64,000 nt of DNA. It comes from an uncultured Flaviramulus sp. (lineage in GTDB: Bacteria; Bacteroidota; Bacteroidia; Flavobacteriales; Flavobacteriaceae). The stretch lies in the NCBI GenBank assembly GCA_947501105.1, contig CANMUP010000001.1, positions 1 through 64,000 on the forward strand. The letters are read 5' to 3'. The position numbers and the translations under genes were made by a program. This document shows, piece after piece, positions 1 to 41,055 of the stretch (the stretch's first letter is position 1; each line of letters begins with the position of its first letter). Under the pieces are notes generated by a model. It did not search any database and had not been told where the DNA came from. It worked only from the letters and a program-made list of their open reading frames with translations.

Positions 1-118
1 ACGTAGAACTACGTATTTTTTTTATCGATTCTATACTATACTTTTACAGTGCTATTAATTAGTTCTTAGGGAGAATTATTGGAGGCTCTAAATTGTAATG
101 ATTTAGAGCTTTCTTTGT
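1..118 (+). ncRNA. Probable small RNA unit, copy 1 of a tandem pair
   Basis: Bases 1-77 are identical to 148-224. The unit opens with a palindrome (ACGTAG-AA-CTACGTA, cut by the window edge). It is followed by a T-run and a -7-like box TACTTTTA at 39-46, then about 30 conserved bases ending CTTAGGGAGAATT. A hairpin GCTCTAAAT/ATTTAGAGC and a T-rich tail follow at about 84-118. Seen directly: identity of the two units and the hairpin. Inferred: an activator-dependent promoter making an RNA of roughly 65 nt with its own terminator. No reading frame of note lies inside. It could instead be a repeated leader of an upstream gene outside the window. Confidence 0.5.
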
Positions 119-146
119 TTAATAAGAATATTGATTTTGATAAAAA

Positions 147-262
147 TACGTAGAACTACGTATTTTTTTTATCGATTCTATACTATACTTTTACAGTGCT
201 ATTAATTAGTTCTTAGGGAGAATTTTATTAAGGCTCTGTATTTTCATAATGCAGAGTCTTTA
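147..262 (+). ncRNA. Probable small RNA unit, copy 2 of a tandem pair
   Basis: Second unit. The full palindrome TACGTAGAACTACGTA lies at 147-162, the -7-like TACTTTTA at 186-193, and the conserved stretch runs to 224. The terminal hairpin has a different sequence from copy 1 (CTCTGTATT pairing AATGCAGAG, one G-U pair) but the same position and size. A stem kept while its sequence changes next to a perfectly kept body argues for RNA function. The palindrome centre lies 38.5 bases before the end of the -7 box, a usual place for an activator. Function unknown. Confidence 0.5.
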
Positions 263-309
263 ATTAAAAGAGAATTAATTTACCCCAAACCTGTCTTTAT
301 ATATACAAA

Positions 310-408
310 ATGGAAAGAAACAATACTCTTGAAAAATTTTTTGCAATAGGATTAATAATATTGGTCTTAATTGTAATTTCAATTAATATTCTTGTTACTT
401 TTTTTTAG
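310..408 (+). CDS. Small single-pass membrane peptide (32 aa)
   Basis: An ATG frame of 32 codons ends in TAG just before a strong terminator. The peptide starts with a short polar head (MERNNTLEKFF) and continues as one unbroken hydrophobic helix rich in Ile, Leu and Val, ending in TFF. This is the profile of a small one-helix membrane protein. It lies directly downstream of the two RNA-like units and could be regulated with them. No strong Shine-Dalgarno sequence is seen, which is normal for Bacteroidota. I do not recognise the family. A chance frame in AT-rich DNA cannot be excluded, but the amphipathic start plus clean helix makes coding plausible. Confidence 0.45.
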   Translation: MERNNTLEKFFAIGLIILVLIVISINILVTFF

Positions 409-442
409 TTTTAGTTAGTCTTTAAAAAAGAATTAATTGAAA

Positions 443-475
443 AAAAAAGCCACCTAAGAAGGTGGCTTTTTTTAT
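443..475. terminator. Bidirectional rho-independent terminator
   Basis: AAGCCACC (447-454) pairs with GGTGGCTT (461-468), with a run of A before and a run of T after. It can end transcription of the small peptide gene from the left and of sucB from the right. Confidence 0.85.
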
Positions 476-491
476 ATAGAAACTAAAGGCA

Positions 492-1709
492 TTAAAGCTC
501 TAATGCTTTTTTAATATCGTTGTTCATTAATAATTCTGTAGGGTTTTCTAATGCTTCCTTAACAGCTACTAAAAACCCAACACTTTCTTTACCATCAATA
601 ATTCTATGATCATAAGATAGCGCTACATACATAATAGGTCGAATTTCAACTTTTCCGTCGATAGCTACTGGTCGTTCAACAATATTATGCATCCCTAAAA
701 TACCACTTTGTGGTGGATTAATTATTGGTGTAGATAACATGCTTCCAAAAACACCTCCGTTAGAAATGGTGAATGTTCCTCCTGTCATTTCATCAACAGT
801 AATTTGCCCATCGCGTGCACGTATAGCTAATCTTTTCACTTCAGATTCAACACCTCTGAAACTTAAATTTTCAACATTTCTCATTACAGGAACCATAAGT
901 CCTTTTGGTCCAGAAACGGCAATACTAATATCGCAAAAATCATAAGAAATCATTTCTTTTCCATCAATCATAGAATTTACTGCCGGATACATTTTTAAAG
1001 CTCTAACAATCGCCAAAGTAAAGAAACTCATAAACCCTAAACCAACGCCGTGCTTTGCTTTAAAGGTTTCTTTATATTCACTTCGTAATGCAAAAATTGG
1101 CGACATATCAACCTCATTAAATGTGGTTAACATAGCTGTTGTATTTTTAGCTTCAACTAACCGTTCTGCCACTTTACGACGCAACATAGACATTTTACTT
1201 CTTGAAGTTCCTCTGTTTCCACCTGTTGGTGTTCCCATACTAGGCACAGCATTTACAGCATCTTCTTTAGTAATACGACCATCTTTTCCTGTTCCAGAAA
1301 CTGATGCTACATCTATTCCTTTTTCGGCCAAAACTTTTTTAGCGGCAGGACTTGCTGTTCCCGTAGCATATGTTTTGTTTTCATTTGTACTTGAACTAGC
1401 ACTTTTATTTTCAGCTTTTGGCGCTTCTTTCTTTTTTTCTTCTTTTACTGCATCGCCACCTTCTGGTTTTTCTGCACTAGTGTCAATTAAACAAACTACT
1501 GCTCCAACAGCAACTGCATCGCCTTCTTCCGCTTTAAGCGTAATTGTTCCGCTAGCCTCAGCAGGTAATTCAAGGGTTGCTTTATCACTATCTACCTCGG
1601 CAATAGCTTGGTCTTTTTCTACATAATCTCCATCTTCAACTAACCATGTTGCTATTTCCACTTCTGTAATAGATTCCCCTGGTGATGGTACTTTCATTTC
1701 TAAAATCAT
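492..1709 (-). CDS. sucB: 2-oxoglutarate dehydrogenase E2, dihydrolipoyl succinyltransferase
   Basis: This is the E2 core of the TCA-cycle 2-oxoglutarate dehydrogenase complex. It transfers succinyl from the lipoyl arm to CoA in the cytoplasm. The 405-residue length is normal. The N-terminal lipoyl domain (1-77) carries the lipoylated lysine in the DSDKA motif (K43). An Ala/Lys/Glu-rich linker follows, then a peripheral-subunit-binding domain (about 119-155, [14 protein letters not shown]...). The C-terminal catalytic domain ends with the signature YDHRIIDGK, with catalytic His368 and Asp372. The start [13 protein letters not shown] is chosen because the lipoyl domain begins there; Met5 is also possible. 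It lies 44 bases downstream of sucA on the same strand, so the two are probably one transcript, ended by the hairpin at 443-475. No E3 gene lies in this window. Confidence 0.96.
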
Positions 1710-31394: not shown

Positions 31395-33392
31395 ATGAAA
31401 AAGCTCATCATATACAGTATTATCTTTCTTTTCAGCGGATTTACATTTGCCCAAGAAGATGTTACCATTAAAAAAGACACGACAAAATTAGACGAAATTA
31501 TTGTTTTAGGTCGACGCAAACTAAGTAACTATAGACAAGAAAAAACCTTATCTAGTATAGATGAATATTTAGAAAAAGCCAATAAAGTTACTATGATAAA
31601 ACGTGGTAATTATGCTTGGGAACCAACAATAAATAACATGAATAGCGATCGATTAAACGTAACTATTGATGGTATGCAAATTTTTGGCGCCTGTACAGAC
31701 AAAATGGATCCCATTACATCTTATGTAGATGTTTCTAATTTAGAAAAAGTAAGTGTTGGTTCTGGGCAGACGGGTACAGAAAATGGGCATTGCGTTGGTG
31801 GCGGAATAGATTTAAAACTACCCGCAAGCAAATATTTTGAATCTGGCTTAAAAACAAGTATAGATTTAGGTTATGAAACCAATGGAAATTACAAAACTGG
31901 AGGTTTAGATATGGAATATTCTAGTAGCAATTTTTATATTAATACTGATGGTATTTTTAGAAAATCTGATAATTATGAGGCAGGAAACAGTCAAGAAATC
32001 TTGTATTCTCAATTTCTAAAATATAACATATCATTACAAACAGGTTTTAAAATAAACGAAAATCACTCCATTGATGCAAATGTAATTTACGATAAAGCTA
32101 CAGATGTTGGTTACCCTGCATTACCAATGGATGTTTCACTTGCCGAAGCTTTAATTACGTCTGTTACTCATAATTACAGCAACGATTCAACATTTATAAA
32201 AACCTTAGAAACTAAACTGTACTTTAATACCATTACCCATATCATGGATGATTCTAAGCGTCCAGATGTACCAATTCGTATGGATATGCCTGGGTGGAGC
32301 GATACTTACGGGTTTTATAGTAAAGCCACAACAAATATTAATAAACATAAGCTAGCCTTAAATTTTAATGGGTTTTACAATCGTTCGTTAGCAGAAATGA
32401 CCATGTATCCAAACGACTCTAATCAACCTGCCATGTTTATGTACACATGGCCAGATATAAGAACGTTTTACACAGGAGTTTTTGCAAAAGATGATTTTTC
32501 TTTAAATGATAATGAAACCCTTTCAACCTCCATTCGGCTAGGTTATCATAACAATATAATTGCTAAAGATGTTGGGTTAGAAAGTCTTCAAATTTTTTAT
32601 CCTGAAATTGATGATACTAAAAGTAGATTTTTAACCAGTATAGCATCAGATTACACTTTTAAAAAGAAAAGTTACGATGTTAGTTTTGGTCTTGGTTATG
32701 GAGAAAGAGCACCTTCTGTTAGTGAAGGTTATGGGTTTTTCCTCTTTAACAGTTTTGATAGCTATGATTACATAGGGAACCCAACCTTAAAAAACGAAAA
32801 AGCGATTGAAGTAAATGCAAAAGCCAATTTTCATAATAGCAAATTTCATATAGGAGTTGAAGCTTCTTATTTTCATATTATGGATTATATTATTGGAGAT
32901 ATTGATGCATCACTCAGCCCTATGACTATTGGTGCTAATGGTGTTAGAGTATATAAAGCTTTATCTAACGCCTCAATTTTTGATGTGTATTTAAATTCAT
33001 CTTATAAATTTTCAAAGTCCTTTTCAGTTAACGGAACCCTTGGTTATAATTACGGAACAGGCAGCAACAATGAAAATTTACCATTAATAAAACCTATATC
33101 CTATTTAGCCGAATTTAGTTATAGCACCACAACGTTTAATTCGGCTATTCAATTAGAAGGTAATGGAAACCAAAGTAATTACAGTAGTTTTTATGGTGAA
33201 GACGAAACGCCTGCGTATGGTGTTTTAAATTTTAATTTAGGAAATGTTTTCTATACCAATACTAACAAATGGATTTTAAAATATGGTGTTGAAAATATTT
33301 TAGATGCTAATTATTCAACCTACGCAGATTGGAATAATATACCAAGACAAGGGCGTAATTTTTATATGAATGTGTCTTTTGTAATCCATTAA
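31395..33392 (+). CDS. OprC/NosA-type TonB-dependent copper receptor
   Basis: 665 residues. A signal peptide is followed by a TonB-box region (KLDEIIVLGRR), a plug and a barrel ending in MNVSFVIH. The plug motif DGMQIFGACTDKMDPITSYVD matches the OprC/NosA family and contains CxxxM (Cys-Thr-Asp-Lys-Met), the copper ligand pair of OprC. Further Met/His-rich loops occur (RMDMPGWSD, MTMYPNDSNQPAMFMYTW). In Pseudomonas stutzeri NosA is needed to supply copper to nitrous oxide reductase, which fits the location between nosY and nirK. It lacks the N-terminal carboxypeptidase-like domain seen in the other receptors here. Confidence 0.88.
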   Translation: MKKLIIYSIIFLFSGFTFAQEDVTIKKDTTKLDEIIVLGRRKLSNYRQEKTLSSIDEYLEKANKVTMIKRGNYAWEPTINNMNSDRLNVTIDGMQIFGACTDKMDPITSYVDVSNLEKVSVGSGQTGTENGHCVGGGIDLKLPASKYFESGLKTSIDLGYETNGNYKTGGLDMEYSSSNFYINTDGIFRKSDNYEAGNSQEILYSQFLKYNISLQTGFKINENHSIDANVIYDKATDVGYPALPMDVSLAEALITSVTHNYSNDSTFIKTLETKLYFNTITHIMDDSKRPDVPIRMDMPGWSDTYGFYSKATTNINKHKLALNFNGFYNRSLAEMTMYPNDSNQPAMFMYTWPDIRTFYTGVFAKDDFSLNDNETLSTSIRLGYHNNIIAKDVGLESLQIFYPEIDDTKSRFLTSIASDYTFKKKSYDVSFGLGYGERAPSVSEGYGFFLFNSFDSYDYIGNPTLKNEKAIEVNAKANFHNSKFHIGVEASYFHIMDYIIGDIDASLSPMTIGANGVRVYKALSNASIFDVYLNSSYKFSKSFSVNGTLGYNYGTGSNNENLPLIKPISYLAEFSYSTTTFNSAIQLEGNGNQSNYSSFYGEDETPAYGVLNFNLGNVFYTNTNKWILKYGVENILDANYSTYADWNNIPRQGRNFYMNVSFVIH

Positions 33393-33479
33393 ATATAGTT
33401 GTTATCATGCTTTAATTTATAAATTACGGTTCTTTTTTTTAGTTTTTATTGCTTTTTAGATATCTACAAAACAATCACA

Positions 33480-33522
33480 TGACAAATGTCATGTTTTAAG
33501 AAAGTCTTAACAATTAATTTTG
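33480..33522 (+). promoter_or_regulatory. Crp/Fnr-type site and -7 box of the nirK-nor operon
   Basis: TGACAAATGTCA (33480-33491), inside the longer palindrome CATGACAAATGTCATG, is followed by TGTTTT, then TAATTTTG (33515-33522). The centre is 36.5 bases before the last base of the box, as in the two other denitrification promoters. Confidence 0.8.
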
Positions 33523-33537
33523 ACTATCCTTAAAAAG

Positions 33538-33549
33538 GACAAAAAAGTC
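33538..33549 (+). promoter_or_regulatory. Candidate Rrf2-type site in the nirK leader
   Basis: GACAAAAAAGTC has the same GAC-N6-GTC arrangement as the perfect palindrome GACAAATTTGTC in front of the Rrf2 gene (43633-43644). It lies just after the expected start site, a position suited to repression. The half-sites are less complete, so it could be only a small stem. Confidence 0.35.
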
Positions 33550-33583
33550 TTTTTTAAAAAAACCATTAACTAAATTAAAGATT

Positions 33584-35050
33584 ATGAAGGTAACCCAAAA
33601 ACAAATGATGATGCCATTTGCATTATTAATTGCAATGTTAATACTGTTATTTACAGCCTGTGTTGACAATGAAAAAAAAGAATATGCTGATACTGCAGAT
33701 ATTCCAGTTAGTAAAGAAATGATTGCTGAACTAACATCACCTCCAAACGTACCAACTCCTGTTGGAAGGCGTAAAGCAAAAAAACTGATAGTAAACATGG
33801 AAATTCTTGAACAAGAAGGCACTATGACTGACGGTACTACGTATAACTATTGGACTTTTGGTGGATCTGTTCCTGGAAGCTTTATTAGAACACGCGTTGG
33901 TGATGAAGTAGAATTTACTTTATCAAACCATCCTGATAATAAATTACCTCATAACATTGATTTACATGCAGTTACTGGTCCAGGTGGTGGTGCAACTTCT
34001 TCTTTCGTAGCTCCTGGGCATGAGAAAAAATTCAATTTTAAAACATTAAACCCTGGCTTGTATGTGTATCACTGTGCTACAGCACCTGTTGGCATGCATA
34101 TCGCTAATGGAATGTACGGTTTAATTTTAGTTGAACCAGAAGGAGGCTTACCTCCAGTTGATAAAGAATATTATGTTATGCAAGGTGATTTCTACACTAA
34201 AGGTGAAAATGGAGATCCAGGGTTGCAAGCATTCGATATGCAAAAAGCAGTAGATGAAGATGCCGATTATGTTGTGTTTAATGGCAAGGTTGGTTCTTTA
34301 ACAGGAGATAATGCCATTACTGCAAGTGTAGGCGAAACAGTTCGTTTGTACGTTGGCAACGGTGGTCCTAACTTAGTCTCTTCTTTTCATGTTATTGGTG
34401 AAATTTTCGATAAAGTTATGGTTGAAGGTGGAGACTTTATAAACGAAAATGTCCAAACCACTTTAGTTCCTGCTGGTGGTGCTGCCATTGTTGAGTTTAG
34501 AGTCGATGTTCCTGGTACATTTATTTTAGTCGACCACTCTATATTCAGAGCCTTTAACAAAGGAGCTTTAGGTATGTTAAAAGTTGAAGGGGAAGAAAAC
34601 AAAAAAGTTTATTCTGGTGTAGTTCAAGAAGGTATTTATCATCCAGAAGGTGGTGGTATACAAGAGATGCCAGACGATGGAAAAGCTAAAACTCCAGTAG
34701 CAACTTCAGAAAAAACTTTAGCAGAAAAAATGGAGTCTGGAAAACAAATTTATATGAAAACCTGTTTCGCTTGTCATCAAGCAGAAGGCCAAGGTATTCC
34801 TAATGCATTTCCTCCTTTAGCAAACTCAGATTATTTAAATGCTGATGTAAGAAGATCGATAGAAATTGTTGTAAAAGGAAAAACAGGAGAAATTACTGTT
34901 AATGGAGAGAAGTACAATAGTGTCATGACAAGACAAGCAATAAGTAATTCTGAGGTAGCAGATGTACTAACCTATGTTTATAATTCATGGGGGAATAACA
35001 AAACTAACGTTACAAAAGCACAAGTTGATGCTGTAAAAAATGGTCACTAA
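33584..35050 (+). CDS. nirK: Copper nitrite reductase with C-terminal cytochrome c domain, lipoprotein
   Basis: Reduces nitrite to nitric oxide in the periplasm. 488 residues, lipobox LFTAC (Cys26). Two cupredoxin domains follow. Type 1 and type 2 copper ligands are visible: HNIDLH (His123, His128), YHCATAPVGM (His163, Cys164, Met171), SSFHVIG and VDHSIF in the second domain. A Pro/Lys/Thr linker leads to a cytochrome c domain at about 380-475 with CFACH (Cys394, Cys397, His398) and an axial Met in VMTRQ. The fused cytochrome probably receives electrons directly. It is the first gene of a unit with nirV, a SCO protein, norC and norB. Confidence 0.96.
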   Translation: MKVTQKQMMMPFALLIAMLILLFTACVDNEKKEYADTADIPVSKEMIAELTSPPNVPTPVGRRKAKKLIVNMEILEQEGTMTDGTTYNYWTFGGSVPGSFIRTRVGDEVEFTLSNHPDNKLPHNIDLHAVTGPGGGATSSFVAPGHEKKFNFKTLNPGLYVYHCATAPVGMHIANGMYGLILVEPEGGLPPVDKEYYVMQGDFYTKGENGDPGLQAFDMQKAVDEDADYVVFNGKVGSLTGDNAITASVGETVRLYVGNGGPNLVSSFHVIGEIFDKVMVEGGDFINENVQTTLVPAGGAAIVEFRVDVPGTFILVDHSIFRAFNKGALGMLKVEGEENKKVYSGVVQEGIYHPEGGGIQEMPDDGKAKTPVATSEKTLAEKMESGKQIYMKTCFACHQAEGQGIPNAFPPLANSDYLNADVRRSIEIVVKGKTGEITVNGEKYNSVMTRQAISNSEVADVLTYVYNSWGNNKTNVTKAQVDAVKNGH

Positions 35051-35072
35051 TAAGAATTAATTAATAGCGAAG

Positions 35073-35843
35073 ATGAAATCTATTTTAAGATTGATAATTT
35101 GTTTGATGTTACTTTGGTTTACTAAAGCAAATTGTCAATCTGAAATGGTTTTAATAAAAGGAGGAACCTATACTCCTCTTTATGGCCGAGACTCTTTACA
35201 GGTTACTATTTCAGACTTTCAAATGGACGTTTATCCAGTAACTAATGAAGCCTTTTTAGAGTTTATTAAAAAGAATCCAAAGTGGCAACGCTCTAAAATC
35301 AAAAAAATATTTGCTGACGCTAATTACCTCATCAATTGGAAATCGGATATAGAGTTAAATAAAAACCAATCTTTAAAAGCACCTATTACAAATATTTCTT
35401 GGTTTGTAGCTAATGATTATTGCGAATGCCAAGGCAAACGTTTACCAACAATTGATGAATGGGAATACGTAGCTATGGCCAATAAAACCTTAGCAGATGC
35501 CAGAACTTTAGAAAGCTATAACAAATACATTTTAGGTTGGTACGAAAAACCCAAAACCTTTAATAACAATATTGGCTCAACCTTTAAAAACTATTGGGGT
35601 GTTTATGATTTGCATGGTTTGGTTTGGGAATGGACATCAGACTTTAACTCTGTTTTAGTATCAGGTGAATCTAGAAAAGATGTTGATAACGATAGTAATT
35701 TATTTTGTGGAAGCGCCGCTATTGGCGCCACAGATTTAATGAATTATGCCGCCTTTATGCGTTATGCCATTCGTGGTAGTGTGAAAGCAAAATACGGCTT
35801 AAAAAACTTAGGCTTTAGATGTGTTAAAGATATAATTGAATAA
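35073..35843 (+). CDS. nirV: NirV, formylglycine-generating-enzyme-like protein
   Basis: 256 residues, signal peptide ending near KANCQ. It has an FGE-sulfatase (SUMF1-like) fold: EMVLIKGGTYTPL, VYPVTNEAFLEFI, PITNISWFVANDYCECQGKRLPTIDEWEYVA, and C-terminal NLGFRCVKD. Such proteins are known as NirV when they follow nirK; a precise role is not established. It lies 22 bases after nirK and 2 bases before the SCO gene. Confidence 0.9.
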   Translation: MKSILRLIICLMLLWFTKANCQSEMVLIKGGTYTPLYGRDSLQVTISDFQMDVYPVTNEAFLEFIKKNPKWQRSKIKKIFADANYLINWKSDIELNKNQSLKAPITNISWFVANDYCECQGKRLPTIDEWEYVAMANKTLADARTLESYNKYILGWYEKPKTFNNNIGSTFKNYWGVYDLHGLVWEWTSDFNSVLVSGESRKDVDNDSNLFCGSAAIGATDLMNYAAFMRYAIRGSVKAKYGLKNLGFRCVKDIIE

Positions 35844-35845
35844 AA

Positions 35846-36571
35846 ATGAAGTACCTAAAAACAATACTTGTTCTGTTATTTATTACATTATTATTTGCTT
35901 CGTGTAAAAATGATAAATCAAATTCAAAGCATGATGATTTAACTGTTTACCAATGTCCAATGAAGTGTGAAGATGGGAAAACATATGATGCTTTTGGAAG
36001 TTGCCCAATATGCAAAATGGATTTGAAAGCAATTCCATCTATATCATCAAAAACAGTGAATGCCGATGAAATTTCAGATGAATCGATTTTCAACTTAACC
36101 TCAAAATGGAACACTGAAGAGGGCAAAACTATTCAGCTAGAAGATTTAAAAGGAAAAACGCTAGTCATGGTAATGATTTACACAACTTGTAAAGCCGCAT
36201 GCCCAAGATTAGTAGCAGATATGCGAAATATTGAAGCACAAATTCCAAATGAAAATTTAAAAGATCTCAACTTTATTTTAGTAAGTATAGATCCAGAAAC
36301 GGACACCCCAGAACGACTAAAAGCTTTCGCTATAGAAAATTTTATGGACGACGAGCAATGGACATTTTTACAAGGTACCAAAAATAGTGTACGTGAATTT
36401 GCTAATGTCTTAGCTGTAAAATACAAACAAATTACACCTATGGATTTTTCACATTCAAACATTATAAGTGTGTTTAATTCAGGCGGAGAATTAATACATC
36501 AACAAGAAGGGTTAGGGGTTGATAATAAAGAAACCATTCAAACAATTCTTGATTTAACTAATAAAAAATAA
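35846..36571 (+). CDS. SCO1/SenC-family copper chaperone with N-terminal heavy-metal-binding domain
   Basis: 241 residues, lipobox LFASC (Cys20). Residues about 34-65 form a small metal-binding domain (YQCPMKCEDG...GSCPICKMDL). The main domain is a thioredoxin-fold SCO protein with CxxxC in TTCKAACPRL and the conserved histidine in DFSHSNIISVF; SIDPETDTPERL is also family-typical. SCO proteins insert copper into copper enzymes. Between nirV and norC, the likely client is NirK, or NosZ (CuA). One transcript with nirK is suggested by the short spacing. Confidence 0.9.
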   Translation: MKYLKTILVLLFITLLFASCKNDKSNSKHDDLTVYQCPMKCEDGKTYDAFGSCPICKMDLKAIPSISSKTVNADEISDESIFNLTSKWNTEEGKTIQLEDLKGKTLVMVMIYTTCKAACPRLVADMRNIEAQIPNENLKDLNFILVSIDPETDTPERLKAFAIENFMDDEQWTFLQGTKNSVREFANVLAVKYKQITPMDFSHSNIISVFNSGGELIHQQEGLGVDNKETIQTILDLTNKK

Positions 36572-36592
36572 TACTAATCAAAACTAAATAAT

Positions 36593-37027
36593 ATGTTATC
36601 AAAAAAACAAGCACGAGCCTTTTTTCTTGGAGGGACAGTCGTTACTTTTTTAATATTTATTGGGCTCACCATTTACTCATTTAGTAAAGCTCAAGATCAG
36701 TCAAATGATGAAAATATTACCGAAGCTGTCGTAAGAGGAAAGCAAATTTGGGAAGATAATAATTGCATGGGATGCCATACAATTTTAGGCGAAGGCGCTT
36801 ATTACGCTCCAGAATTAACAAAAGTAATTGATCGACGAGGTGAAGGCTATATTAAAGCGGTATTAATGACCCCAGTAGATTGGGCACCAAATGGAAGAAA
36901 AATGGTGGCTTACGGCTTTTCGGCAGAAGAGGCGGCAGATTTAATTGCCTTTTTTGACTGGATAGATGATATTGATTTAAACGGGTTCGATACTGTGGTA
37001 TCCCCATTAGCAAAAGACGAAAACTAA
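36593..37027 (+). CDS. norC: Nitric oxide reductase subunit C (cytochrome c)
   Basis: 144 residues. One N-terminal membrane anchor (FFLGGTVVTFLIFIGLTIYSF) precedes a periplasmic cytochrome c. The haem motif is CMGCH (Cys58, Cys61, His62) within the classic NorC stretch CMGCHTILGEGAYYAPELT. The axial Met is in GRKMVAYGFS. It passes electrons to NorB. Eighteen bases separate it from norB. Confidence 0.96.
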   Translation: MLSKKQARAFFLGGTVVTFLIFIGLTIYSFSKAQDQSNDENITEAVVRGKQIWEDNNCMGCHTILGEGAYYAPELTKVIDRRGEGYIKAVLMTPVDWAPNGRKMVAYGFSAEEAADLIAFFDWIDDIDLNGFDTVVSPLAKDEN

Positions 37028-37044
37028 ACTAAAAAATAAAACAA

Positions 37045-38385
37045 ATGAAATATAAATCACAAAAAGTAGCGTATTGGTTTTTTGCCTTATCCATGTTATT
37101 GTTTGGTTTACAAATAATATATGGCTTTATAATGGGATTTGCTCATGCCGGATACGATGGATTGCATAGTGTTATTCCTTTCAACACAGCCAGAGCTGTA
37201 CATACTAATTTATTAGTTGTTTGGCTGTTATCTGGTTTTATGGGAGCCGCTTATTATATAATACCAGAAGAAGCGCAACGCGAATTAGTAAGCGTAAAAC
37301 TGGCCTATGTACAATTAATTAGTTTGGCTATTGTTGGTGTTACAGCTATTGTAGGATATCATTTTAATTATTGGGAAGGGCGTAAATTTTTAGAAATCCC
37401 AAGGCCTTTAGACTATTTAGTTGTTGCAAATGTATTGTTGTTTTTAGGACTCATTTTAACAACCCTATTTAAAGGAAAACGAAGAACAACGACGGCATTA
37501 GTGCTCTCCATGGGGCTTCTTTTTGCTGCCTTATTATATCTACCTGGAATGCTTCCTTTTGATAGTCAAGTAAAAGATTCTTTCTTTAGATGGTGGGTTG
37601 TTCACCTTTGGGTTGAAGGTGTTTGGGAATTAATCATGGGAGGTATTTTATCTTTCCTATTAATTAAACTTACTGGAGTTGATAGAGAAGTTATCGAAAA
37701 ATGGCTATATGTTATTGTTGGGTTAACATTCCTGTCTGGTGTTTTAGGAACTGGACATCACTACTACTATATTGGTGTTAATAAAATTTGGCTAATTGTT
37801 GGTGGAATTTTCTCAGCTTTAGAGCCTTTAGCGTTCTTAGCAATGGCATTATTCGCAGTAAACATGTACCGAAAAGGAGAAAAGAAACATCCAAATAAAT
37901 TAGCTTTATATTGGACACTTGGCGCTGCCATTATATCATTTATAGGAGCTGGACTCTTAGGATTTGCTCATACGCTACCGCAAACAAACTTATACACACA
38001 CGGAACCTTAGTAACTGCCATGCATGGCCACCTTGCTTTTTGGGGAGCTTACGCTATGATTGTTTTAGCTATTATTAGCTATAGTTTACCAAATATAACA
38101 GGTAGAAAATTATACGAAAGTACTAGAGGCAGAATGGCTTTTTGGATGTCTAATATTGGTATGATAGGCATGACGGTTGCCTTTGGAGTTGCTGGTGTTG
38201 TTCAAGTATATCTTGAGCGTAAATTGAAAATGGAATTTATGGAAGTTCAAAAACAAACTGAAATCCATTTCGTAGTACTTATTATTTGCGCTACGCTATT
38301 TCTAACTGGTATAACTCTTTACATGATAGACTTTTATAAACATGGTAAACCAACGGATGAAGCTTTAGAAGTTGTACCTAATTAA
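37045..38385 (+). CDS. norB: Nitric oxide reductase subunit B
   Basis: Catalytic subunit of cNOR, reducing 2 NO to N2O. 446 residues with 12 predicted membrane helices. Haem and non-haem iron ligands are recognisable: RAVHTNLLVVW (low-spin haem), VVHLWVEGVWE (FeB His and the conserved Glu), GTGHHYYYIG (FeB His pair), and MHGHLAFWG (proximal and low-spin haem His). It is the last gene before a terminator. Confidence 0.96.
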   Translation: MKYKSQKVAYWFFALSMLLFGLQIIYGFIMGFAHAGYDGLHSVIPFNTARAVHTNLLVVWLLSGFMGAAYYIIPEEAQRELVSVKLAYVQLISLAIVGVTAIVGYHFNYWEGRKFLEIPRPLDYLVVANVLLFLGLILTTLFKGKRRTTTALVLSMGLLFAALLYLPGMLPFDSQVKDSFFRWWVVHLWVEGVWELIMGGILSFLLIKLTGVDREVIEKWLYVIVGLTFLSGVLGTGHHYYYIGVNKIWLIVGGIFSALEPLAFLAMALFAVNMYRKGEKKHPNKLALYWTLGAAIISFIGAGLLGFAHTLPQTNLYTHGTLVTAMHGHLAFWGAYAMIVLAIISYSLPNITGRKLYESTRGRMAFWMSNIGMIGMTVAFGVAGVVQVYLERKLKMEFMEVQKQTEIHFVVLIICATLFLTGITLYMIDFYKHGKPTDEALEVVPN

Positions 38386-38428
38386 CATATGAATACAACA
38401 AATTAGAAGACTAACTCTAATTTTTTCT

Positions 38429-38466
38429 CCCGCATTATGAAGTTATAATGCATAATGCGGGTTTAT
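38429..38466 (+). terminator. Terminator after norB
   Basis: CCCGCATTATG (38429-38439) pairs perfectly with CATAATGCGGG (38451-38461), followed by TTTATTTA. It separates norCB from the activation genes norQD. Confidence 0.85.
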
Positions 38467-38487
38467 TTACTTTAAACACTAAATACA

Positions 38488-39261
38488 ATGAGTATTCCTT
38501 ACTATCATACTATTGGTAAAGAAGTTCAAGTTTTTGAACATGCCTATAACTGTAAAATTCCGTTTCTACTAAAAGGCCCTACAGGAACGGGTAAATCTAG
38601 GTTTATTGAGCATATGGCTCATAAATTAAATACAGAATTAATTACCATATCGTGCCACGAAGAAACGTCTTCTACAGATTTAATAGGGCGTTTTATTATT
38701 AAAGGAGCCGAAACTGTTTGGTTAGATGGTCCTTTAACTACAGCGGTAAAAGAAGGCCATATTTTATATTTAGATGAAATTGCCGAAGCAAGGCCAGATG
38801 TTATCGTTGCCATTCATTCTTTAACAGATCATAGGCGTGAATTATTTATTGATAAATTAGGAGAAACAATAAAAGCACATAAAGATTTTATGCTAGTGGC
38901 GTCCTTTAATCCAGGTTATCAGCGCGGATTTAAAGAGTTAAAGCCATCGACAAGGCAACGTTTTGTTGCCACATCTTTTGCATATCCCGAAGCTAAAGTA
39001 GAAGCAGAAATTTTAGAATCTGAAACTAAAATAGAATCAGACATTGCAAAAAAACTAGTAAATATTGGCACTAAAATTAGAAATCTAACCGAGCTAGGTT
39101 TAACCGAAACAGTATCAACAAGATTATTGGTAGATGCTGCTAAATTAATTCATACAGGGTTACCCAAACGACTCGCCGTTCATGTAGCCGTTATAGAACC
39201 GTTAACAGATGATTTAGAAGTTATTCAAGCGCTTAAAGACTTAAGTGATTTAATGATATAG
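38488..39261 (+). CDS. norQ: NorQ, MoxR-type AAA+ ATPase
   Basis: 257 residues. Walker A is GPTGTGKSR, Walker B is ILYLDEIAEA, and the sensor is VASFNPGYQ. NorQ works with NorD to load the FeB iron into NorB after assembly. The sequence ELKPSTRQRFVA is typical of the CbbQ/NirQ/NorQ group. The gene is 18 bases upstream of norD. Confidence 0.94.
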   Translation: MSIPYYHTIGKEVQVFEHAYNCKIPFLLKGPTGTGKSRFIEHMAHKLNTELITISCHEETSSTDLIGRFIIKGAETVWLDGPLTTAVKEGHILYLDEIAEARPDVIVAIHSLTDHRRELFIDKLGETIKAHKDFMLVASFNPGYQRGFKELKPSTRQRFVATSFAYPEAKVEAEILESETKIESDIAKKLVNIGTKIRNLTELGLTETVSTRLLVDAAKLIHTGLPKRLAVHVAVIEPLTDDLEVIQALKDLSDLMI

Positions 39262-39279
39262 TGAATAAACACTAAAGAT

Positions 39280-41055
39280 ATGTTTGAGTTCGAGCCAGAT
39301 GAGTACATTTTTACCAAGTTTGCTTTTTTCTTTAAAAAACGAAAAAACAAGAAAGAAGCTGGTTTTGAACATGCTGTAAATTTAAACGATATAAAACCTA
39401 GACTCACCATTTTTGCTAGAGCCATTACAGGACAATCTATCGAAATTTATGATGCCGAACGAGAAGGCGGTTATAGAAATAACAACTTTTTTTTACCCCA
39501 AAAGTTTTATGAATTTCAAACTGTAGAAGAAAATATCTCATTTTATTTATTCAGAATCTTATACCTATCAACTCAAAAAAATTTGGATTTGAATTGGAAT
39601 GATAATCAAGAACACGAAATCCTTGATTCCCAACAATTAGCTTTTAGTTCATCTGATAAAGTACTGAAAGAGTTGTTTTCTCAATTCCCTATAACCAAAG
39701 CATATCACGAAAAATTCGTAGCGTATTATAAGCCTAAGGCAACTTCCAAACAATCTCCAGATTACACATTCATTTATGGGAAATGGATGCGGAATTCACC
39801 TCATGACGATTCAGAAAAAACATTAGAAAACTTTACAGATAAAGTAAAAGAAGCAAATCAAGAACAACCAAAAACGCTTATTAAATCGAAGGCTGTAGAA
39901 GAAATTATATCCGTTCAAGTAGATCAAAAACAACTAGATGATGCCGTATTGCAACACCAATTTGAAAAGGTAGAAACTGCTGAAGAATTTGGTGGAAACT
40001 TTAGAGATATGGACGGTGATGACGATTTAGAAGATCATTCTAATGCACTTGATGAAGTAAATATGAAATATACAGTTCGGGTAGATGATACTGCACACTC
40101 TGTATATCAAGCCGATTTTATTGAAAACACTACCGTACAAGAAAGTGCAGAAAATGAAAGTACTGGGCATTTTATTTTATATGATGAATGGAACTATGCA
40201 AACAGAGCATACAAAGAAGACTTTTGTAAAGTGTATCCTAAAACACAATTAAAAACAGCTGTTTCTTACTATAAAAAAACGCTTAACGAAAACCGATCAA
40301 CCTTAGTTGGCTTACGTAAAATGCTAACCACCGTAAATAATAAATACCAGCAACAACAAAGACAAACGCAGGGAGAAGAATTTGATATAGATGCCATTAC
40401 AGATTTGTTTATTGACGTAAAATCGGGGCATACACCTTCAGAAAAAATATACCTATCAAAACGAAAAAAAGAGAAAGATCTATCTATTTTACTTTTACTA
40501 GATATTAGTCTTTCAAGCGATGGTTATGCCGCAGGAAATAGGGTTATTGATGTTGAGAAACAAGTCTCTATTTTGTTTGGCGAAATTTTAGATGAGTTTA
40601 ATATCGATTTTTCTATTGATTGTTTTTACTCCAAAACACGTAATCATTCCAGTTACCTTACTCTTAAAGGGTTTGATGAAGATTGGAATACAGCAAAATA
40701 TAAAGTTGGTGCCATTGAGCCAAGTGGTTATACACGCATTGGTTCTGCTCTACGACATTCGGGTACGTTATTAGATAAACGAGATACTAAAAATAAATGG
40801 GTGATTTTAATATCGGACGGCAAACCAAACGACTATGATAAGTATGAGGGTAAATATGGTATAAATGATGTTAAACAAGCATTACGAGAATTAAACGAAC
40901 GCCAAATAAACTCCTATGCCTTGGCCATAGAAGCCCAAGCTAAATATTATTTACCGCAAATGTTTGGGCAAAACCATTATCAAATTCTTACTAATCCAAA
41001 TGAGCTACTCCAATCTTTAGTGAAGCTTTACGAAAAGATAAAGCATCAATCTTAA
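39280..41055 (+). CDS. norD: NorD, von Willebrand factor A domain protein
   Basis: 591 residues. The C-terminal VWA domain (about 395-590) has the metal-ion-dependent adhesion site DISLS, with further ligands in GYTRIGSAL and SDGKPNDYD. The N-terminal half is charged and without membrane segments, as in other NorD proteins. It partners NorQ in activating NorCB. Its end is convergent with the next gene, 10 bases away. Confidence 0.93.
   Translation: MFEFEPDEYIFTKFAFFFKKRKNKKEAGFEHAVNLNDIKPRLTIFARAITGQSIEIYDAEREGGYRNNNFFLPQKFYEFQTVEENISFYLFRILYLSTQKNLDLNWNDNQEHEILDSQQLAFSSSDKVLKELFSQFPITKAYHEKFVAYYKPKATSKQSPDYTFIYGKWMRNSPHDDSEKTLENFTDKVKEANQEQPKTLIKSKAVEEIISVQVDQKQLDDAVLQHQFEKVETAEEFGGNFRDMDGDDDLEDHSNALDEVNMKYTVRVDDTAHSVYQADFIENTTVQESAENESTGHFILYDEWNYANRAYKEDFCKVYPKTQLKTAVSYYKKTLNENRSTLVGLRKMLTTVNNKYQQQQRQTQGEEFDIDAITDLFIDVKSGHTPSEKIYLSKRKKEKDLSILLLLDISLSSDGYAAGNRVIDVEKQVSILFGEILDEFNIDFSIDCFYSKTRNHSSYLTLKGFDEDWNTAKYKVGAIEPSGYTRIGSALRHSGTLLDKRDTKNKWVILISDGKPNDYDKYEGKYGINDVKQALRELNERQINSYALAIEAQAKYYLPQMFGQNHYQILTNPNELLQSLVKLYEKIKHQS

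Follow-up and report, generated by a model that had tools for sequence, protein, structure and literature searches.

A multicopy family of predicted small RNAs beside LuxR-type regulators in Flavobacteriaceae

The closest described systems lie in several groups of bacteria. The Gac/Rsm system of Pseudomonas combines the response regulator GacA, a conserved palindromic upstream activating site and tandem rsmX copies (PMC7911923). In streptococci, the csRNAs are very similar RNAs of 87-151 nt, some of them in tandem, that are driven by the response regulator CiaR and repress translation by pairing (PMC8186281). Within the Bacteroidota, FopS of Bacteroides thetaiotaomicron comprises multicopy paralogous sRNAs with a single-stranded 5' seed and a terminator, and the available part of its description does not mention linkage to a LuxR-type regulator (PMC11697453); Rfp18 of Flavobacterium psychrophilum is a conserved flavobacterial sRNA (PMC9723704).

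The locus described here lies at the start of the window (the whole stretch of 64,000 nt that was analysed, G000:C1:1-64000), which takes up the opening 64 kb of contig C1 in a genome of 4.19 Mb (G000). It shares a response regulator, an upstream palindrome and tandem short-RNA copies with Gac/Rsm (PMC7911923), and several very similar RNAs, a response regulator and tandem copies with the CiaR csRNAs (PMC8186281); with FopS it shares the multicopy paralogous organisation, a putative 5' seed and the predicted terminator (PMC11697453), and with Rfp18 the status of a conserved, here predicted, flavobacterial sRNA. Unlike Gac/Rsm, it stands among 40 genomes of which none has CsrA scoring above the cut-off, its predicted RNA has one variable purine-rich loop and no set of GGA loops, and several palindrome types and regulators accompany one RNA body. 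CiaR recognises a direct repeat (TTTAAG-N5-TTTAAG) and one regulator controls all csRNA copies in streptococci, whereas here we read inverted palindromes at a fixed place, in more than one type. Rfp18 is set apart by a third stem-loop that is predicted to pair with metalloprotease mRNAs (PMC9723704). The layout works like the Gac/Rsm or csRNA systems, but without their tested defining features.

Against Rfam 15 (4227 models, among which FopS may not be included), the window gave no match at the gathering score, and 10 further loci gave three tRNA matches only, none of them on the units. Membership in an Rfam family was rejected; in a permissive scan of window 1-500, the matches listed fell mostly at a terminator at 440-475, and the few that touched a unit had E values of 2.6 to 9. 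No description of this RNA was found in searches of an open-access full-text library, which lacks most subscription papers, and these searches brought up few papers on Flavobacteriaceae sRNAs in general. As the RNA is found clade-wide in multiple copies, with probable regulators alongside, activator, site, RNA and candidate target could be tested together, and the placing of one body behind several palindrome types, each beside its own regulator, would illustrate in nature how several inputs can feed a single RNA output.

Repeated units at a contig edge

Window positions 1-77 and 148-224 are 100% identical over 77 nt, with a start-to-start distance of 147 nt, so direct comparison bears out the pair of identical units that had been claimed, and an exact repeat of this length rules out chance as its origin. 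The original prediction of a tandem pair was right about the arrangement but not about the number: the end of contig C4 (512,422) carries one full, slightly diverged unit followed by 63 nt equal to window 1-63. Since C4 ends and C1 starts in the same array, the assembly must have broken at the repeat, and the array holds at least three units, the third on the end of C4. The palindrome expected at the head of each unit and the expected -7-like box are both present in both units, and the prediction that no protein is encoded agrees with the absence of any ORF of at least 50 aa overlapping window 1-262. The features of the array and its downstream side are:

1-15, no strand assigned: putative activator palindrome of unit 1, ACGTAGAACTACGTA, class A, its first T lost at the contig edge
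39-46, plus strand: -7 box of unit 1, TACTTTTA, of the TAnnTTTG type, from sequence reading
51-120, plus strand: predicted sRNA of unit 1, putative +1 at G51, 5' tail GCUAUUAAUUA, terminator at its end
60-78, plus strand: hairpin 1, UAGUUCUU-AGG-GAGAAUUA, from folding and covariation
81-120, plus strand: terminator hairpin of unit 1 with U-rich tail, hairpin proper 81-113, from folding and covariation
147-162, no strand assigned: putative activator palindrome of unit 2, TACGTAGAACTACGTA
186-193, plus strand: -7 box of unit 2, TACTTTTA, from sequence reading
198-264, plus strand: predicted sRNA of unit 2, putative +1 at G198, second terminator type
231-259, plus strand: terminator hairpin of unit 2, from folding
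310-408, plus strand: 32-aa single-span membrane ORF (MERNNTLEKFFAIGLIILVLIVISINILVTFF) after the array, without a Pfam match
492-1709, minus strand: odhB-like gene (probable E2 of 2-oxoglutarate dehydrogenase), a convergent neighbour conserved at class A loci

Each unit runs in the order palindrome, -7 box (TAnnTTTA), GCTATTAATTAGTTCTTAGGGAGAATT and terminator hairpin. The flavobacterial -7 box has the consensus TAnnTTTG and is placed at -12 to -5 (PMC9723704), and from that placement we infer that transcription would start at the G of GCTATT, at window 51 and 198. The predicted RNA would be ~65-70 nt long and would consist of a 5' tail (GCUAUUAAUU), a small hairpin and a terminator hairpin. 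The two window units fold better than their shuffles (z -3.89 and -3.67), and eight units of differing classes gave z values from -3.67 to -6.16; in the minimum-energy folds of those eight, the 5' tail as far as hairpin 1 was fully unpaired in five and partly paired in three. The units carry in their sequence the features of a trans-acting sRNA gene, namely a promoter and a terminator of their own and a conserved non-coding body. A terminator drifting freely between copies, as had been proposed, was not borne out; its pairing is kept, and in four of the five other genomes where at least two tandem units were read (G002, the congener G003, G019 and G021, but not G008), the two terminator types follow one another in the order seen here.

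An RNA family with two covarying hairpins

A pattern search of 40 related genomes found the core (up to two mismatches) together with the same surroundings in eight genomes from six genera, and the remaining core matches with two to three mismatches in those 40 genomes were, where read, coding sequence or unrelated. A covariance model (R1) was then available from 22 units, which included both window units, so that the matches of these two (G000:C1:38-115, 89.4 bits; and G000:C1:185-263, 88 bits) are not independent scores. Of 299 genomes sampled from the window's family, R1 matched 92, which represent 76 of 236 genera and gave 212 matches in total. In a sample of 296 genomes from across the phylum it matched three, each belonging to the window's family and one being the window's own genome; weak relatives may be missed in the latter count because that search used strict filters. 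At least 113 stretches in named genomes match the core pattern, the 80 matches listed including Algibacter, Hyunsoonleella, Flavivirga, Wocania, Tamlana, Formosa, Lacinutrix and Mangrovimonas, and conservation inside the pattern is biased since these stretches were picked by it.

Covariation was assessed in 147 matches from 90 stretches picked for variety. Every modelled pair, 6 of 6 in hairpin 1 and 13 of 13 in the terminator hairpin, showed changes on both sides; in this alignment, which was fitted to the structure, pairing occurred in 95.8% of cells, none of 500 shuffles reached the observed measures, and slid versions gave at most 60.7%. The sequence GCTATTAA is exact in 139 of the 147 units, the TTT and the A/G of the -7 box are kept in most of them, and the 5' tail hardly varies. 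The units form an RNA family in which both hairpins covary, and the covariance-model search thus yielded the many copies, conserved CTTAGGGAGAATT and covarying hairpins that the original prediction had named as its support.

These data bear on two other explanations. That the array is merely a recent duplication or a functionless mobile repeat would fit the identical 77-nt copies, the contig break at the array and the existence of one array with eight model matches (L136), but we regard it as highly improbable: its position between a response regulator and odhB is kept in many genera, the palindromes keep a fixed spacing and the hairpins covary. A duplication without conservation, which had been named as a possible undoing of the prediction, does not apply to units kept across so many genera.

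The RNA might also sequester a protein, its loop or tail binding an RNA-binding protein that the several copies titrate, as Rsm RNAs do with RsmA/CsrA. The response regulator, palindrome and tandem copies do resemble Gac/Rsm (PMC7911923), and the loop is AGG in 97 of 147 units (TGAG, TAAGGG and others elsewhere). Against this, each RNA offers one possible GGA, and it is the loop that varies. CsrA (PF02599) gave a single sub-threshold match among the 40 genomes, in a genome of another family, and its failure to pass the cut-off in any of them led us to reject a CsrA sponge and makes an Rsm-like one unlikely; we consider protein sequestration in general, which could involve a different RNA-binding protein, an unlikely account.

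Palindrome classes and neighbouring regulators

Palindrome spacing was determined for 141 units found by the core pattern in 113 of these stretches, 140 of them with enough upstream sequence. The best palindrome was centred 43.0 nt before the G of the predicted start in 105 units and 42.5 nt before it in 26 (131 of 140). The pattern class of each palindrome was compared with the nearest upstream regulator within 2.2 kb, as judged by similarity to three reference proteins. Class A palindromes (TACGTA...TACGTA type, a loose pattern) had a response regulator in 101 units, a PAS-LuxR protein in 0 and none found in 6, while class B (TACTCAAWTTGAGTA) had a PAS-LuxR protein in 26 units and other regulators in 0, so that no unit of these two classes showed a crossed palindrome-regulator pairing. 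Class D (TACC...GGTA) had a distant response-regulator match in one unit and none in three, and the remaining units comprised another class (PAS in one, no regulator in two) and one that was cut; some of the units without a regulator (six of class A, three of class D and two others) are cut by the end of the stretch.

Further loci add to this picture. In 40 further stretches, class C palindromes (twice at L220, once at L204) follow a regulator gene placed after a kinase-like gene, and this regulator has no Pfam domain over the cut-off, with DUF5932 sub-threshold only. Two class D units (L208 and L212) adjoin gene pairs that are 24-27% like the PAS-LuxR protein. Copies with neither palindrome nor regulator occur at L194 (2770-2856), L198 (2491-2575) and L231 (2579-2663), between comM-like and moeA-like genes, and, by eye, hairpin 1 of these copies seems to keep its pairing despite changed bases. 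Another such copy, at L201, has a different location, and no regulator lies near a single unit at L206 (5900-5977) or near the L227 unit, which has a class A palindrome. At L136 (2239-4374), the eight model matches (E up to 0.05) come after a response regulator, and some are diverged.

The exact class B palindrome occurs once per genome in 5 of 40 genomes; it sits at a unit in G000, G002, G011 (where the hairpin is diverged) and G019, and away from any unit in the fifth, which belongs to another family. In G000 the exact class A palindrome (ACGTAGNNCTACGT) has no copy outside this array, which spans the ends of C1 and C4, and sites with one mismatch number 7 elsewhere in the genome vs. 4 for a control pattern. 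Upstream, on C4, lie an aspartyl-protease-like gene and, directly ahead of the array, a gene for a 208-aa response regulator with a receiver (PF00072) and a LuxR-type DNA-binding domain (PF00196). GacA is of the same NarL/LuxR type. This response regulator is the likely activator of the window array, and the claim of a regulatory RNA pair under a dedicated palindrome-binding activator is thereby supported at the sequence level. More broadly, we read the pairing of classes and regulators as dedicated copies that would serve dedicated activators, with exceptions.

We consider it quite probable, and hold with good confidence, that these are tandem genes of a multicopy trans-acting sRNA, switched on by the adjacent LuxR-type regulator and pairing with mRNAs through a seed. 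The response regulator encoded beside the array would bind the palindrome centred at about -43 and switch on transcription of the units, an activation to which the fixed palindrome spacing and the linkage both point. The resulting ~70-nt RNA would present its 5' tail (GCUAUUAAUU) as a pairing seed, ahead of the small hairpin and the terminator hairpin. One body is seen beside several regulators, which suggests that, at other loci and behind other palindromes, several signals may each raise one common RNA. Its seed would most likely pair with the translation-start regions of mRNAs and block them.

A different possibility is that the conserved 5' part acts as an element of the promoter or of the initially transcribed region, and that the short transcripts lack a trans function, serving for example as decoys for the regulator or as leaders of the small membrane ORF downstream. 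In 63 of 72 class A arrays, an ORF accepted by a loose filter for small membrane products lies after the last unit, no more than 700 nt from it (a count with no chance control), and the last unit could for that reason be the leader of such an ORF. The same body type, however, is found with other palindromes and neighbours, hairpin 1 covaries, and the units that were read each have a terminator hairpin of their own, so we judge decoys or leaders to be improbable. The concern that the units are part of a longer mRNA leader does not apply to odhB, which runs the opposite way. Between the small ORF and odhB, window 442-473 contains a perfect 14-bp inverted repeat, likely a bidirectional terminator.

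Candidate targets

Returning to the predicted trans-acting sRNA, the near invariance of its 5' end suggests a role in pairing. Target sites were sought in an 864-kb sample of G000 with 668 ORFs, using 25 shuffles. Near the ORF starts, shuffles paired as strongly in the top 5 in 3 of 25 cases for the 5' tail, 7 of 25 for the first 32 nt and 16 of 25 for the loop, and no clear excess of pairing energy over shuffles was seen near these 668 starts. No convincing outlier emerged from k-mer counts in the same sample, where the largest skew between sense and antisense (AACTAATT, 11 to 1) lay inside the range of permuted 8-mers. A long antisense target was rejected: allowing up to three mismatches, the 21-nt core occurs in G000 in four units and at one three-mismatch site (C2:872406). 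Across 299 genomes, the seed complement before ATG, as a ratio to control, was higher in sRNA-positive than in sRNA-negative genomes (3.98 vs. 2.51), and the former value fell to 3.12 after removal of the 212 sRNA copies; this gap is modest and open to composition and kinship.

Within the window, one site stands out:

35052-35068, plus strand: candidate lineage-specific target site, 17 contiguous nt complementary to the 5' end of the sRNA, with one G-U pair

The site lies 4 nt ahead of the start of a nirV-like gene, which has an FGE-sulfatase domain; the preceding gene combines multicopper oxidase and cytochrome c domains. The nirV gene was found in 54 of 299 genomes, and 30 loci were taken, 28 of which yielded the ORF. 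As a general target nirV was rejected, since among eight sRNA-positive genomes with the ORF the site is kept only in G000 (17 nt) and G008 (11 nt); the sRNA-negative G148 has TTAATAGC further upstream of nirV. The surrounding region, window 31395-41055, is a probable denitrification cluster, in which we assign TonB receptor-like, nirK-like (with fused cytochrome c), nirV-like, SCO-like, norC, norB and norQ/D-like genes, two of them examined with Pfam.

The best conserved target candidate that we infer from sequence comparison is a fatty-acid desaturase (PF00487), directly before whose start AATTAATAGC lies in G000 and two congeners. Leaders were taken from 90 of at least 253 matching genomes (the 30 best matches, the next 20, then 20 sRNA-positive and 20 sRNA-negative genomes in list order, with G148 and G293 skipped). 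In sRNA-positive genomes, no other 8-mer is as common as the seed complement TTAATAGC within 40 nt upstream of the desaturase start, and this sequence is present in the leader in 20 of 55 sRNA-positive vs. 1 of 35 sRNA-negative genomes (Fisher P 0.0002, which ignores relatedness), the single sRNA-negative genome being a congener; the exact sequence is absent from the other 35 of the 55. The significance is to be discounted in that the desaturase was picked after seeing 41 pattern matches (three congeners) and the contexts of 25 of 30 fetched loci. Among the 20 sites, 16 abut the start codon and two miss it by one base; of the other two, one starts at -14 and that of G083 lies ~30 nt upstream.

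Repression of the desaturase by the sRNA is plausible, albeit unproved, and falls somewhat short of probable. More tentative is the possibility of a common-output RNA, in which different signals, each with a regulator, palindrome and copy of its own, would converge on one base-pairing RNA that holds down the membrane desaturase, along with lineage-specific targets such as nirV; if true, a large clade of Flavobacteriaceae would share this RNA as a regulator of membrane fluidity or respiration. By eye, four desaturase leaders (L342, L347, L359 and L400) carry an imperfect inverted repeat, GTATGATC...ATCATATT, before the sRNA-complementary site.
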